Assembly (NCBI GenBank): GCA_026627345.1
Contig: JAPNUP010000138.1
Coordinates: 1-64,000, forward strand
Source: Bacillota bacterium
GTDB taxonomy: Bacteria > Bacillota > Bacilli > Alicyclobacillales > SLC66
Length of the DNA stretch: 64,000 nt
Direction: 5' to 3'
Notes under the pieces: model-generated
What the model saw: only the letters and a program-made list of their open reading frames with translations
The model's database searches: none
What the model was told of the DNA's origin: nothing
Shown: piece after piece, positions 41,444-46,454 of the stretch
Numbering within the stretch: the stretch's first letter is position 1
Layout: each line of letters begins with the position of its first letter
Translations under genes and position numbers: made by a program

Positions 41444-41852
41444 TCAAACTTTTTTCACCTCGAAGGTATCCTCCACCAGTCGCCACAATTGGGGAAAGGG
41501 CTGCCCCAGCACCCAGAAGCTCACGCCGCGTAATCCCATTTCATAGACGAGGTGAAACTTGGCTAAGATCGATTTGGCATCCTCATACCAAACCTCATGC
41601 TCTGTTTGGCCCACATAATAGTGATACATCGGGCTCGCGGCTAGCGGATCAAAGCGCACTGTCACGCCTCGATCAATGGCCAGGTTTTGCGCTCGCTTAG
41701 GCGAGATTCCGGCAGCCAGTACACTCGGTTTTTCGGGTAGTGTCCAGTTATATCCGTAGGTCGGAATGCCGAGCAAGATCTTGTCAGGCGGGATGGTGGA
41801 CGTGGCATAATTCAAAACCGCCCTGACTTGATTAAGGGGGGCGATGGCCATC
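41444..41852 (-). CDS. Spore cortex-lytic GH18 enzyme, C-terminal exon-like fragment (yaaH/sleL type)
   Basis: Codes for the last 135 residues of a LysM-GH18 enzyme whose N-terminal 291 residues lie at 45513-46384. From MAIAPLNQVRAVLNYA through DKILLGIPTYGYNWTLP and YEDAKSILAKF to GLRGVSFWVLGQPFPQLW it aligns with the C-terminal half of YaaH/SleL, as recalled. There is no own promoter or credible start except the ATG at 41851, which is part of the att core region. By itself it cannot fold a GH18 barrel. Intact reading frame and lack of stops argue against long-standing decay. Removal of the 3,660-bp element joins both parts in frame. Confidence 0.85.
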
Positions 41853-41862
41853 GGAGGTCCTC
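41847..41862. other. Attachment site, left (attL)
   Basis: GCCATC-GGAGGTCCTC. The 10-base core at 41853-41862 is identical to the core at 45513-45522; the 16-base block differs at one base (C here, A on the right). GAGG-T-CCTC is a dyad around a central T, as expected for the short core of a serine recombinase site. Confidence 0.8.
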
Positions 41863-41990
41863 ATGCCGGCAATCAACTACAGAGTTAGTCCCGCTATGAT
41901 CGGCTTGCCCACGTTCGACAAAGTACTGACATATTCGCTTTCGATGTCGCGATGCAGCTTTGACTACGGGCTAATTGGCGTGGGATTCGT

Positions 41991-41996
41991 TATAAT
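41991..41996 (+). promoter_or_regulatory. -10 box of the mqo promoter
   Basis: TATAAT directly before the first repeat copy. TTGACT occurs 25 bases upstream (41960), too far for a standard -35, so the promoter is incomplete or activator dependent. Confidence 0.4.
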
Positions 41997-41999
41997 ATA

Positions 42000-42098
42000 G
42001 AGACGGTTACACGGTGCTGTCGCACCACCGTCCACGGGGAGAATAAGCGGCTGGCGCCGTTATTCCGAGACGGTTACACGGTGCTGTCGCACCACCGT
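42000..42098 (+). repeat. Two 32-base direct repeats with internal hairpins
   Basis: Identical 32-base copies at 42000-42031 and 42067-42098 (period 67). Each begins GAGACGGTTAC and can fold as ACGGTG/CACCGT or, alternatively, GGTGC-TGTC-GCACC. The 35-base spacer itself folds (GAATAA-GCGGC with GCCG-TTATTC, one bulge). Located in the predicted 5' leader of mqo just after the -10 box. Confidence 0.85.
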
Positions 42099-42198
42099 TA
42101 TGCATTTTTGATCCCTTCGTTGATTGTGTGTTTATATTGTATCCGTGATGTGACGGGACTTATTTGTATCGTAAATATGGGCGATAAGGAAGGTTGCC

Positions 42199-43701
42199 AT
42201 GAGCGACATGCGACAAAAAACAGATGTGATCCTGATCGGAGCGGGGATCATGAGTGCTACTTTAGGTTCGATGCTCAAGGAGCTGGCGCCTGAGTGGGAT
42301 ATCAAGGTTTTTGAGAAACTGAGCACGCCAGGTGAAGAAAGCTCCAATGAATGGAATAATGCAGGGACTGGTCACTCAGCTTTATGCGAGCTCAACTATA
42401 CCACCGAACGATCGGACGGCTCGATGGATATCAGCAAAGCGATTGCAATTAACGAACAGTTTCAGCTCTCACGGCAATTTTGGGCGCACCTGGTCACTCA
42501 TGGTTTGATTCAACATCCGCAAGATTTTATCAGGCCACTTCCGCACATGAGTCTGGTAGCGGGGGAAGACAATGTTCGCTTCTTACGCAAGCGTTTCGCC
42601 GCGCTACAGGATCATCCTTTCTTTGAGGGGATGGCATTTTCAGAGAACCCGGACAAGTTACAGGAATGGGTGCCTCTGATTATGGAGGGCCGGTCTGTGA
42701 CGGAACCGATTGCGGCGACTAGGATTGAATCGGGCACGGATGTCAATTTTGGCGCCCTGACGCGCATGTTGTTTGCGCACTTGCAGCGCCAAGGGGTTGC
42801 TGTAAGTTACAGGCACTCTGTGGAGGATATTCGGCGACTGTCGGACGGCTCGTGGGAAGTGAAAGTGCAGGATATCGACAAGGGGACTTTTGAATATCAC
42901 ACGGCACAGTTTATTTTTATCGGTGGCGGTGGGGGAAGCCTTCCGCTCCTGCAACAGACAGGCATTCCTGAATCGAAGCACATTGGAGGCTTTCCGATCA
43001 GCGGTCTTTTCTACGTGTGCAATAACCGTGAAATGGTCGAGAAACATCATGCCAAAGTCTATGGAAAGGCGCGAGTAGGGTCCCCACCAATGTCCGTCCC
43101 ACACCTCGACACCCGTTTCATCGATAATCAGAAGACGCTCCTCTTCGGTCCGTTTGCCGGGTTTTCACCGAAGTTTTTAAAGACAGGCTCTAATATGGAT
43201 TTGCCGCGGTCTGTCAAATCCCATAACGTCGCCACTATGCTCGCAGCAGGGGTCAAAGAAATGGCTTTGACCAAGTACCTCGTGCAACAATTGATGTTGA
43301 CGAATGAGCAGCGCATGGAGGAACTTCGCGAATTTGTTCCGAATGCGAAGAGTGAAGACTGGGATGTGGTGGTCGCAGGGCAACGTGTACAAGTCATCAA
43401 AGACACCGAAGCAGGCGGCAAAGGAACGCTCCAGTTTGGCACGGAAGTGATCACCTCTGCCGATGGTTCCGTTGCCGCCCTTTTAGGTGCCTCTCCAGGC
43501 GCATCGACTGCAGTCCACGCTATGCTGGGCATTTTGCAGCGGTGTTTTCAAGAAGACTTTCCTACCTGGGAGGATAAACTAAAGAAGATGATTCCTTCCT
43601 ACGGTATGTCGCTTGTAGAGCACCCCGACTTGTACCGTGAGATTCAACAGTCGACGGCCGAAGTTCTCGGATTTGGCGAACTGCACGCGACCCACCAGTA
43701 G
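42199..43701 (+). CDS. mqo: Malate:quinone oxidoreductase
   Basis: 500 residues, full length for the family. [21 protein letters not shown] is the FAD-binding N-terminus; [23 protein letters not shown] and [13 protein letters not shown] are Mqo hallmarks, as are [14 protein letters not shown] and [13 protein letters not shown]. It is a peripheral membrane flavoenzyme oxidising malate to oxaloacetate with quinone as acceptor. It is the only metabolic gene in the recombinase element and is preceded by a repeat-containing leader. Codon use looks like the surrounding chromosome. Confidence 0.95.
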
Positions 43702-43728
43702 TTAGCCAGGCAACTGGACAATCACGCG

Positions 43729-43762
43729 CGGCATACACATCACTGAGGTGATGTGTATGCCG
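43729..43762 (+). promoter_or_regulatory. 15-bp perfect hairpin covering the start of the 64-codon ORF
   Basis: CGGCATACACATCAC (43729-43743) pairs with GTGATGTGTATGCCG (43748-43762) around TGAG. The ribosome site GAGGTG and the ATG at 43757 lie in the loop and right arm, so an RNA hairpin would hide them. As DNA it is also a perfect operator-like dyad. No T tract follows. Confidence 0.75.
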
Positions 43763-43951
43763 TCGCGACGTATTGAAGTGACTCGCGTCACGTTTGGGGA
43801 GGAACGAACGCCACAAGAACTGACCATGGCCGTAGTCCCCCTTCTTCTACAGTACCTCGATATCAGACCAACGTCTTACCAAATTTCCTATGAAGAACCT
43901 GGACCTGCACTGGAGCAAAATCAACCGCGCCTGAATCGCGAGGGAATGTAG
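43757..43951 (+). CDS. 64-residue protein preceding the recombinase; possible directionality factor
   Basis: Begins MPSRRIEVTRVTFGEERTP, six bases after GAGGTG. The stop is two bases before the recombinase ATG, so translation is probably coupled. The protein is small, with a basic N-terminus and an acidic, proline-rich C-terminus. I do not recognise a family. Large serine integrases often need a small recombination directionality factor for excision (SprB with SprA in SPbeta is an example), and the position suggests that role; this is inference. Confidence 0.6.
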   Translation: MPSRRIEVTRVTFGEERTPQELTMAVVPLLLQYLDIRPTSYQISYEEPGPALEQNQPRLNREGM

Positions 43952-43953
43952 CG

Positions 43954-45513
43954 ATGCGAAAGTGTGCGATCTACGCGCGTGTATCGGACGAATCTCAAGT
44001 CAAAGGCGAGTCGACAGAACACCAGATCAGTGTCTGTAAGGAAATTGCCCGAAGAAGGTCACTCGAATCAGGTGACACTTGGTTGACTCCGGACGAACTC
44101 GTCTATGTGGACGAGGGAATTACAGGCACAAGCTTAGTCAAACGTGCGAAAGTGCAGCGGCTACTACAGGATGCCCAAAACCATTGCTTCGAGGTGGTAT
44201 TGTTTAAAGGCATTTCGCGGTTTGCCAGAGACACCGTGGACGCGCTTTTGATGCTGCGCAACCTAATGGCTTGCGGGGTCCATGTGGTGTCCTTGGAAGA
44301 GAACTTCGATAGCCAGCGCGACAATGCAGAATTTGTGTTCACCATACACTCGGCGCTCGCCCAGGCAGAATCAGAGAAGACGGCTATTCGCGTACGCATG
44401 GGGGCTTCTCAAAAAGCACAGCAAGGCAAGTGGAATGGGAGAGCGCCGGACGGTTACGTGTTAAACTCCGATACGAAACGCTTGGAGATCGACCCTGAAT
44501 TCGGGGCGGTGATTCGCGACATCTTTACGATGTACGGGGAAGGCCATGGCGTGCGAAGTATCGCCCATATACTGAACGAAAAAGGGCTCCGTACCAAGCA
44601 AGGCAACTGGTGGACGCAGCGTCACATCGCCCGACTTTTGCGCAATCCAGCCTATGTGGGCGACGTGGCGTATGGTCGCCGTGTCTTGCGAACGTCATTT
44701 CCTGATCCAGAGGACCCCCTTAAGCGCAGTAAAGTGGTGGCAAACAACCCGGATGCAAGTGCGATCGTCATTTGCCGCGATGCGCATCCGGCACTCGTCA
44801 GCCGCTCGTTGTTTGCCACTGTCGCCGCGCGGTTACAAAGCCGCAAGCAGGAAAAAGGACAAATCGGCAAGGCGCATCTGTTGACGAAAGGATTGGCCAC
44901 TTGCAGTTGTGGCAGTAGTATGACCATTAAATACAATGGTCATGGGACCGCCTACTATCACTGTCTGGGTCAAAAGGAAAAAGGAAAGGCGTTTTGTCAA
45001 CAGCGGTACTGGCGCGCAGACGCACTCGAAGCGGCGGTCCTGCAAGCCGTCAAAGTGGCAATTGCGGACGTGGTGACACTGCAAAACATGCAAGTTCACA
45101 TACAGGTAGATGGGGGCATCGAGAGGAAGCTTCACGAGACCAAAGAACAGATTGCGGGGCTCATGCGCAAGTCTGATTTATTGTTTGATGCGTATGCCAG
45201 AGGCAACTTGTCCGAGGAGCAGTTCACTCATGTCAACCAGACTTTAAGGGCGCAAATCGCTAGTCGAAAAGGAGACGAGGAGGCTCTGTGCGTGCGGCTG
45301 AGAGATGAGAAAGAGAATTTTGGCCAAGACCTGCACGAGGGATTGCAAGTGGCGATGGATGAGCTGCTCAGTACGCGTTGCACGCGCCCTGATCTTGCGC
45401 GAAAACTGCTTCAAGTCCTGCTTAAACGCATTGTGATCACCTACACCGGGATTGAACTGTCCTATGTGTTTAAAGAACCCCCTTTGTCCGGAGGTAGTTC
45501 ATTGGCGCCATAG
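43954..45513 (+). CDS. Large serine recombinase (SpoIVCA/SprA type)
   Basis: 519 residues. The N-terminal resolvase domain is CAIYARVSDESQ with nucleophile Ser11, plus FKGISRFARDTVDALLML. The recombinase domain runs ~165-290 (GRAPDGYVLN...IAHILNEKGLRTKQGNWW...RNPAYVGDVAYG). A zinc ribbon follows with cysteines in ATCSCGSSM, YYHCLG and AFCQQ. A coiled-coil stretch lies ~385-440. It would cut and rejoin the two att cores. The stop codon TAG overlaps the first base of the right core. It is encoded opposite to the interrupted gene. Confidence 0.95.
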   Translation: MRKCAIYARVSDESQVKGESTEHQISVCKEIARRRSLESGDTWLTPDELVYVDEGITGTSLVKRAKVQRLLQDAQNHCFEVVLFKGISRFARDTVDALLMLRNLMACGVHVVSLEENFDSQRDNAEFVFTIHSALAQAESEKTAIRVRMGASQKAQQGKWNGRAPDGYVLNSDTKRLEIDPEFGAVIRDIFTMYGEGHGVRSIAHILNEKGLRTKQGNWWTQRHIARLLRNPAYVGDVAYGRRVLRTSFPDPEDPLKRSKVVANNPDASAIVICRDAHPALVSRSLFATVAARLQSRKQEKGQIGKAHLLTKGLATCSCGSSMTIKYNGHGTAYYHCLGQKEKGKAFCQQRYWRADALEAAVLQAVKVAIADVVTLQNMQVHIQVDGGIERKLHETKEQIAGLMRKSDLLFDAYARGNLSEEQFTHVNQTLRAQIASRKGDEEALCVRLRDEKENFGQDLHEGLQVAMDELLSTRCTRPDLARKLLQVLLKRIVITYTGIELSYVFKEPPLSGGSSLAP

Positions 45514-45522
45514 GAGGTCCTC
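45507..45522. other. Attachment site, right (attR)
   Basis: GCCATA-GGAGGTCCTC, with the core at 45513-45522. It contains the recombinase stop codon and, on the minus strand, the codons for GGPPMA of the interrupted hydrolase. Confidence 0.8.
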
Positions 45523-46384
45523 CGACCCAGCCCCATTCGTACGTCATGAGCATCACAAAGTCTACAAGCGAACCAAGGGTCTTATAGTCAAACGCTCCCA
45601 TCCACGCAGCACTGGGATCATCACTGGTCTTGGGCCCCATGGCGATTGAGACACTGTATCCATCTTGGTGCATCGCCTCTTGCAACTCGCGAATAAACGC
45701 ATTGTACAACGGGCGATCGGTTGGGTGCATGTGCTCGAAATCGATATTGACCCCTTTGAAGCCTTTGTTCGCCATGGTCGCTTTGGCCGCCGCAATGACC
45801 TTCTGGCGAAGCGATGCAGCGGCCAGAATCGTATGGGCCAAGTCTGAGTTAAAATTGGATCCATCGAAGTTCGTCACGCATAGCAGTGGCGCGACACCGA
45901 GCGCTGTCATGCTAGAAAGCGCCTGCTGGTCTTGCATGGCAACGAGACTGCCGTCTTGCTTGACGTGATAGCTGAAGATGGTTGCGAATGTCATGGGCTC
46001 TGACTCTTGTAGGATTTCGCTGTCTCCTGACGTGCCTGACGGAATCATGTAGCCGTTGACCTCCGCCGTGTACTTTGTGGCAATAGGAGCTGGCACAAAC
46101 AAAATCTGCCCAATCTCTAAGTAGTCGGTTACTTCTAGCCCATTGGCACCGGCCACTGCGATGACAGGCACCTTGTACTTGCGAGCAATCGTCGTGAGCG
46201 TCTCGCCCGCACCGACTGTATGATGGATCAGGGTGCTAGGCGCGCCCGGCACCATCAAGTTGACACCGGGCGTCAGCGTCGTTCCTGGCGTTTCATTGAG
46301 CGTTTGCAAAGTGGCCGCGCTGACGCCAAACGCTTGGGCTACCGTATCTAGTGTATCTCCGGTACGAGCCGTGTAGATAAACAA
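45513..46384 (-). CDS. Spore cortex-lytic GH18 enzyme, N-terminal fragment (yaaH/sleL type)
   Basis: Residues 1-291 of the reconstituted enzyme. Start is the TTG at 46384 (MFIYTARTGDTL), with GGAGG eight bases before it; GTG at 46393 lacks a site. Two LysM peptidoglycan-binding domains (~2-46 and ~52-98) precede the GH18 barrel with catalytic GVNIDFE near residues 211-217. The frame passes through the att core and, unexcised, reads on to a stop at 45470 after ~14 foreign residues, giving a truncated barrel. YaaH/SleL cleaves cortex fragments at germination and is made in the mother cell in Bacillus. Confidence 0.88.
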
Positions 46385-46454
46385 ACCTTTCACCTCCGCA
46401 ACATGATCTATAGTCAAGGTATTCGCAGGCGACCGATTTATGGCAGACGACCAA

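Follow-up and report, generated by a model that had tools for sequence, protein, structure and literature searches.

Sporulation genes that are known or proposed to be interrupted by integrated DNA and rebuilt by its excision include sigK, spsM, spoVFB, spoVR, gerE and yabG (PMC4191935, PMC5595907, PMC10747680). Reconstitution of gerE by excision of the gin element was reported to be sporulation-specific (PMC5595907), and the Alicyclobacillus phage MMB025 integrates in sigK (PMC13141910). In the 64,000-nucleotide stretch analysed here (the window; contig JAPNUP010000138.1, positions 1 to 64,000, order Alicyclobacillales), the spore cortex-lytic enzyme gene yaaH/sleL was found to be split by 3,660 bp of DNA. 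Sequence comparison makes it quite probable that this DNA is a small, apparently non-phage intervening element of a sporulation gene, and that its recombinase, probably together with a small protein, excises it as a circle and fuses the yaaH halves in the mother cell. The split gene is real and probably functional, and the comparison makes the locus one case of a recurrent system rather than a one-locus guess. The gene, the element and its ends are arranged as follows.

41444..41862, minus strand: 3' part of yaaH/sleL (C-terminal part of GH18), with its stop at 41444; open reading frame (ORF), Pfam
41847..41862, no strand: attR-type junction with core GGAGGTCCTC at 41853-41862, within a 16-bp repeat
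41853..45512, no strand: intervening element of 3,660 bp, measured core to core and including one core copy
45507..45522, no strand: attL-type junction with core GGAGGTCCTC at 45513-45522, within a 16-bp repeat
45513..46384, minus strand: 5' part of yaaH/sleL (two LysM domains and the N-terminal part of GH18); ORF, Pfam LysM and Glyco_hydro_18

The 5' part begins with a TTG codon at 46384, which is preceded by the Shine-Dalgarno sequence GGAGGTG; a TTG start is also used by yaaH orthologues within the same family. Because the break lies inside the GH18 domain, with the 5' half covering Pfam positions 70-182 and the 3' half positions 207-316, neither half would be expected to be active alone. 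Everything that the first-pass annotation of this DNA had described here was present, namely both gene halves, the core sequence and their joining in frame. Joining at the core reproduced a stop-free reading frame of 1,281 nt (426 aa and a stop) with the junction ...MTYEWGWVGGPPMAIAPLNQ..., and the frame was restored exactly, including the conserved motif GGPPMA. The joined protein has two LysM domains and a GH18 barrel colinear with SleL, which identifies it as YaaH/SleL. Its residues 3-425 were aligned with the SleL/YaaH structures 4s3j and 4s3k (E about 1e-84), and the aligned region of 4s3j likewise has GGPPMAI.

To this locus were compared 59 genomes of the order, belonging to the window's own family and to a second family. 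The window's own genome (G000) is a draft assembly of 2.76 Mb in 186 contigs. An uninterrupted counterpart, which the first-pass annotation had proposed to look for in relatives, was found in the majority of own-family genomes and in many genomes of the second family (about 26 relatives, 423-485 aa), among them the sister species of the same genus (G001), whose 426-aa orthologue is 72% identical. In 15 genomes of the second family, mostly Alicyclobacillus, the gene was broken at the same Gly-Gly-Pro-Pro codons (G024, G026, G028, G030, G034, G036, G040, G042, G044, G045, G047, G049, G050, G053 and G057). The element of each of these carries a homologous recombinase about 48-58% identical to that of the window, and all 15 genes rejoin in frame across a shared GGACC to encode 428-445 aa. 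Where measurable, the elements of these relatives are 5.1-41 kb long (that of G050 spans two contigs), which together with G000 gives a range of 3.66-41 kb. G056 has the same split, spread over two contigs. In every complete split case the halves were free of stops and frameshifts. Relatives holding nothing but decayed fragments, which had been named beforehand as evidence that would count against excision, were not what was seen: the joinable split relatives have two intact halves, and other relatives have an uninterrupted gene.

The direct repeat around the core is identical at 15 of its 16 positions, and its copies are spaced by 3,660 bp. The junction of the circle that excision would release, GTAGTTcATTGgcGCCATAGGAGGTCCTCATGcCGgCAATcAACTAC, has dyad symmetry at 16 of 24 positions about the core, and of roughly 128,000 centres in the window just 9 reached 16 or more dyad matches. 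The attP of serine integrases is typically dyad-symmetric about the core (PMC5595907), and the circle junction therefore looks like an attP-like site of this kind. In many split relatives and in G000, the half-site GTAGTnnnnTG.. was recognised by eye on both arms of the reconstructed attP. The crossover dinucleotide is probably the CC of GGACC on the yaaH sense strand, since these bases are common to every attL/attR pair, including the divergent ones of G056 and G052.

Three genes were found in the element, all on the plus strand.

42199..43701, plus strand: cargo gene mqo, malate:quinone oxidoreductase, 500 aa; Pfam Mqo 7e-235, NCBIfam
43757..43951, plus strand: small ORF of 64 aa (ATG at 43757) or 67 aa (GTG at 43748), 2 bp upstream of the recombinase gene
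43954..45513, plus strand: large serine recombinase, 519 aa; Pfam Resolvase, Recombinase and Zn_ribbon_recom

The recombinase matches PF00239, PF07508 and PF13408, all above the cut-offs, which places it in the large serine recombinase family; YokA of SPbeta and the phiC31 integrases are among its PDB matches. In an alignment of 18 of these recombinases (A1), the YARVS motif of the Resolvase catalytic domain, containing the nucleophilic serine, was invariant. No relative of the A1 recombinases above about 31% identity was present among the phage and plasmid matches listed, and viral contigs gave at most 30%. The G000 genome contains a single close copy of the recombinase. Its stop codon abuts the core, and the gene is convergent with the 5' half of yaaH; the recombinase of the relatives reads toward the 3' half. 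The ORFs of the element (mqo, the small ORF and the recombinase gene only) include no phage structural or replication genes, and the element does not qualify as a prophage. The small ORF is a candidate recombination directionality factor. It gave no match in Pfam, NCBIfam or PHROGs, and its predicted structure was of low confidence (pTM well below the middle of its scale), but a small upstream ORF with the weak pattern I.V..V.YG...L recurs before most of the homologous recombinases.

The locus thus combines a sporulation gene interrupted in its coding region, exact restoration of the frame, a recombinase of its own and att sites at both ends, as is characteristic of intervening elements. The large serine recombinase would recombine the two junctions containing GGAGGTCCTC, with the small protein encoded upstream probably acting as the directionality factor. 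The 3,660-bp element would then leave as a circle, and in-frame fusion of the yaaH/sleL halves would allow synthesis of the complete LysM-LysM-GH18 cortex-lytic enzyme in the mother cell. In the forespore the element would be retained and so be passed to the next generation. Timing in the mother cell may be set by control of the sigma-E/SpoIIID type. We infer the excision itself, the role of the small ORF and the timing; that excision accompanies sporulation is suggested by analogy with skin, gin and yin.

Alignment of the regions upstream of the recombinase genes revealed a motif that may bear on this timing.

43716..43740, plus strand: promoter-like motif GGACAATC-N8-CATACACAT, a SpoIIID-like box with 11 bp between GGACA and CATA
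43729..43762, no strand: perfect 15-bp palindrome over the CATA box and the start of the small ORF; inverted repeat
46416..46443, minus strand: putative sigma-E-like promoter of yaaH, CCATAAA-N13-AATACCTT, from comparison of upstream regions; weak consensus match

The arrangement RGACA-N11-CATANNCAT was present with invariant spacing upstream of 19 element recombinase genes (one with GTACA); its consensus is GCAAGTGGACAATCcG...GCATATCCATC, with the SpoIIID-like box GGACAANC. The SpoIIID consensus is WWRRACARNY, and the first box agrees with it in the RRACARNY core, while the CATA box is compatible with the -10 element of mother-cell sigma factors. Similar boxes (CATACGCAT/CATACCCAT/CATAGGCT) occur upstream of yaaH in these species. 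G000 encodes SpoIIID, and its sigK is intact. For spoIVCA, which encodes the sigK recombinase of B. subtilis, transcription is by sigma-E and almost entirely dependent on SpoIIID (PMC517825). The motif can thus be hypothesised to be a promoter. An operator at the CATA palindrome is an equally good reading; the dyad is retained with compensating changes in many homologous elements.

Three sets of species share an element by descent, with the same gene order and cargo, and in these the selection on the two halves of yaaH could be estimated. If a 3' fragment were never joined, its dN/dS would be expected to drift toward 1. In G024/G028/G030, dN/dS was 0.038-0.047 for the 5' half and 0.030-0.044 for the 3' half at dS of 0.10-1.31; the corresponding values were 0.052 and 0.047 in G034/G042 and 0.089 and 0.072 in G045/G057. 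The recombinases of the same pairs gave dS of 0.14-1.23 and dN/dS of 0.10-0.14, and the comparable dS of recombinase and yaaH indicates that element and gene diverged together. Considering that dN/dS was low for both halves wherever the split was inherited, the simplest reading is that these lineages regularly rejoin the two halves and make use of the gene.

A possible trace of the excised state was found in G052. One of its contigs ends in an uninterrupted gene running across the site (to residue 329), the other has the 3' half after foreign element-like sequence (TCTATAGGCCCTCCCATGG), and the two (L182/L183) overlap exactly over 120 bp at the contig end. Such an overlap is suggestive of an assembly-graph fork with both states present in the DNA.

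Several observations weigh against developmental excision at the window's own locus or against the proposed control. A search of the G000 assembly for the joined site yielded the integrated junction only, and no attL contig was found in a search of G052, for which a duplicated 3' part is an alternative. Since the gene of G001 is uninterrupted and the G000 recombinase lies on a long branch of the tree, the insertion in G000 may be recent, and the evidence of selection comes from other species. The halves in G000 are merely intact, with synonymous sites saturated in the comparison; the 3' half has 13 changes on the G000 branch and 7 on the G001 branch, a difference that is not significant. The G000 element is also oriented opposite to those of the relatives, being inverted relative to the crossover dinucleotide. 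As to control, the strict motif had three matches in the whole G000 genome, that of the element and two inside coding genes, and so pointed neither to a wider regulon nor to known mother-cell promoters. Scans of the regions preceding yaaH and the recombinase genes for sigma-E and sigma-K consensus sequences produced weak matches only, and the recombinases of G024/G028/G030 have neither the motif nor the small ORF.

One alternative is an ordinary integrative element whose attachment site happens to be a conserved stretch of yaaH. The gene would then be inactivated in this strain, excision would be rare, serving transfer and free of developmental control, and the loss would be tolerated through redundant cortex-lytic enzymes and GH18 paralogues. 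The empty site in the sister species, the absence of the insertion from the nearest relatives and of an excised form from the G000 assembly, the relationship of the recombinase to those of mobile elements, and another full-length GH18/LysM paralogue in the same genome (G000:C127) would all fit. However, the halves are intact elsewhere, with dN/dS of 0.03-0.09 up to dS of about 1.3, unlike a dead gene; the 3' fragment by itself lacks the N-terminal part of the barrel; and a conserved regulatory motif precedes the recombinases. This explanation is therefore considered unlikely. Still less probable is stochastic, reversible excision during vegetative growth, a phase-variation-like "active lysogeny" giving a mixed population. 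The fork in G052 would be consistent with both states in one culture, and for yin of C. botulinum an intact yabG could be detected at every time point (PMC10747680). However, the target is a spore enzyme with no evident function in vegetative cells, the promoter-like motif looks like those used in the mother cell, excision by serine recombinases ordinarily requires a factor, and G000 yielded no excised form. Decayed fragments or an assembly artefact are scarcely credible even for a draft of 186 contigs, as the locus lies inside one contig, the architecture recurs in 15 other genomes, complete chromosomes included, the frame is restored exactly with GGPPMA, and a 10-bp core arising by chance is excluded by the same codon split in those 15 genomes together with the uninterrupted 426-aa orthologues. 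Of the developmental intervening element proposed in the first-pass annotation, restoration of the gene by excision is thus strongly supported by the same site, core, recombinase family and in-frame join in 16 genomes and by strong purifying selection on both halves where the split was inherited; mother-cell timing is supported only indirectly, by the motif, the identity of the target and precedent.

The annotation had also called the element minimal, which needs correcting because it carries mqo as well. This is the sole mqo found in the G000 genome, while G001 retains mqo at another location. NAD-dependent malate dehydrogenase was not detected in G000 or G001 but was present in the other 17 genomes of that search. 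The element thus seems to carry the only malate-oxidising enzyme of the cell, with the caveat that the genome is a draft. A broader proposal, possible but doubtful at present, is that small, largely non-phage elements occupy one sleL codon site repeatedly or persistently across the order under a mother-cell sigma-E/SpoIIID switch, and that the G000 element captured the only malate-oxidising enzyme, so that one programmed excision would both switch on a cortex-lytic enzyme and delete a core TCA gene from the chromosome of the mother cell. If this were true, loss of the element in vegetative cells would be costly, and the element would be domesticated and self-stabilising.

The element also contains a repeat upstream of mqo.

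42000..42031, no strand: 32-nt palindromic repeat, copy 1; genome-dispersed
42067..42098, no strand: 32-nt palindromic repeat, copy 2; genome-dispersed

The consensus of this repeat is about GAGACGGTGACATGGTGCTGTCGCACCACCGT, and seven near-copies were found, two in the element and five on contigs C39, C48, C51, C98 and C146. A CRISPR mini-array at 42000/42067 was considered and rejected because the repeat is dispersed in the genome.

The elements of the relatives are largely non-phage, with cargo unrelated between elements. An ArsB arsenical pump, an ECF sigma factor and a glyoxalase-family protein were identified by Pfam, and a copper ATPase-like protein, a CDF-like transporter and an amino-acid permease by inspection. 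In several species two or three recombinases are present at the site, which suggests that elements stack at yaaH.

Other interruptions were also observed. In G025 (L089, L186), the break in a YaaH-like gene lies elsewhere, at about residue 322, and some 118 kb separate the halves, as a result of either another insertion or a rearrangement. G054 has, 21 kb from its intact yaaH, a second copy of the 3' part that starts at about residue 300 (G054:C1:3568190-3568570) and may have been left behind by an element carrying a 3' end of its own. Sister recombinases 49-57% identical to that of the window were found in a second gene, encoding a trypsin-like protease of the HtrA/S1C type (L177 in G002, L176 in G010 and L174 in G048). 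The protease is interrupted at IGNP|LGLDHSVT, where short cores are shared, such as CGGGAATCCG in L176, and in L177 its halves join into a full Trypsin_2 domain. These may be intervening elements of a second family.

In the literature searched, coverage of which was partial, yaaH/sleL is not named among the targets of such elements and no account of its being split was found; an earlier description is possible. The locus adds a gene for a cortex-lytic, germination-related enzyme to the short list of those thought to be rebuilt by excision in sporulating cells. The arrangement can be common, being present in about 17 of the 59 genomes of the order, and is not a curiosity of a single strain. Because a gene damaged in this way need be repaired only in the disposable mother cell, and because the cargo is diverse, it is suggested that sporulation genes can give accessory genes a place to integrate at low cost. 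The unusually small element, with one recombinase and one small ORF, offers a convenient system for studying what directional, cell-type-specific excision requires. The finding is also relevant to juice-spoilage Alicyclobacillus, as SleL is expected to affect germination.

Among the systems already described, the fdxN element of cyanobacterial heterocysts likewise undergoes developmental excision by a large serine recombinase, XisF, but in a different organism, gene and cell type, and the window recombinase is only weakly similar to the XisF family (109.6 bits, below the curated cut-off of 375). In vfbin (spoVFB), vrin (spoVR) and SPbeta (spsM), other mother-cell genes are interrupted and, where tested, rebuilt by excision (PMC4191935); the genes are different, and the elements are prophage-like. 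The skin element in sigK of B. subtilis and C. difficile resembles the present one in that it splits a sporulation gene, encodes a serine recombinase (SpoIVCA) and has a short core. However, skin has a sigma-factor target and a length of 48 kb, whereas here the target is a cortex-lytic enzyme and the element is 3.7 kb long, without phage genes. The yin element in yabG of C. botulinum (PMC10747680) similarly lies in a mother-cell gene related to the spore coat and germination and is excised to restore it, but yin is a prophage reported to be unique to one strain, whereas the yaaH elements occur in many species and are largely non-phage. The gin element in gerE of B. cereus ATCC 10987 (GirC/GirX; PMC5595907) is likewise non-phage and has a serine recombinase, a small directionality factor (here a candidate) and att sites with inverted repeats. 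It differs in its 28.6 kb and three recombinases; the element described here has one recombinase (more in some relatives) in 3.7 kb, and its kind is spread over much of the order.

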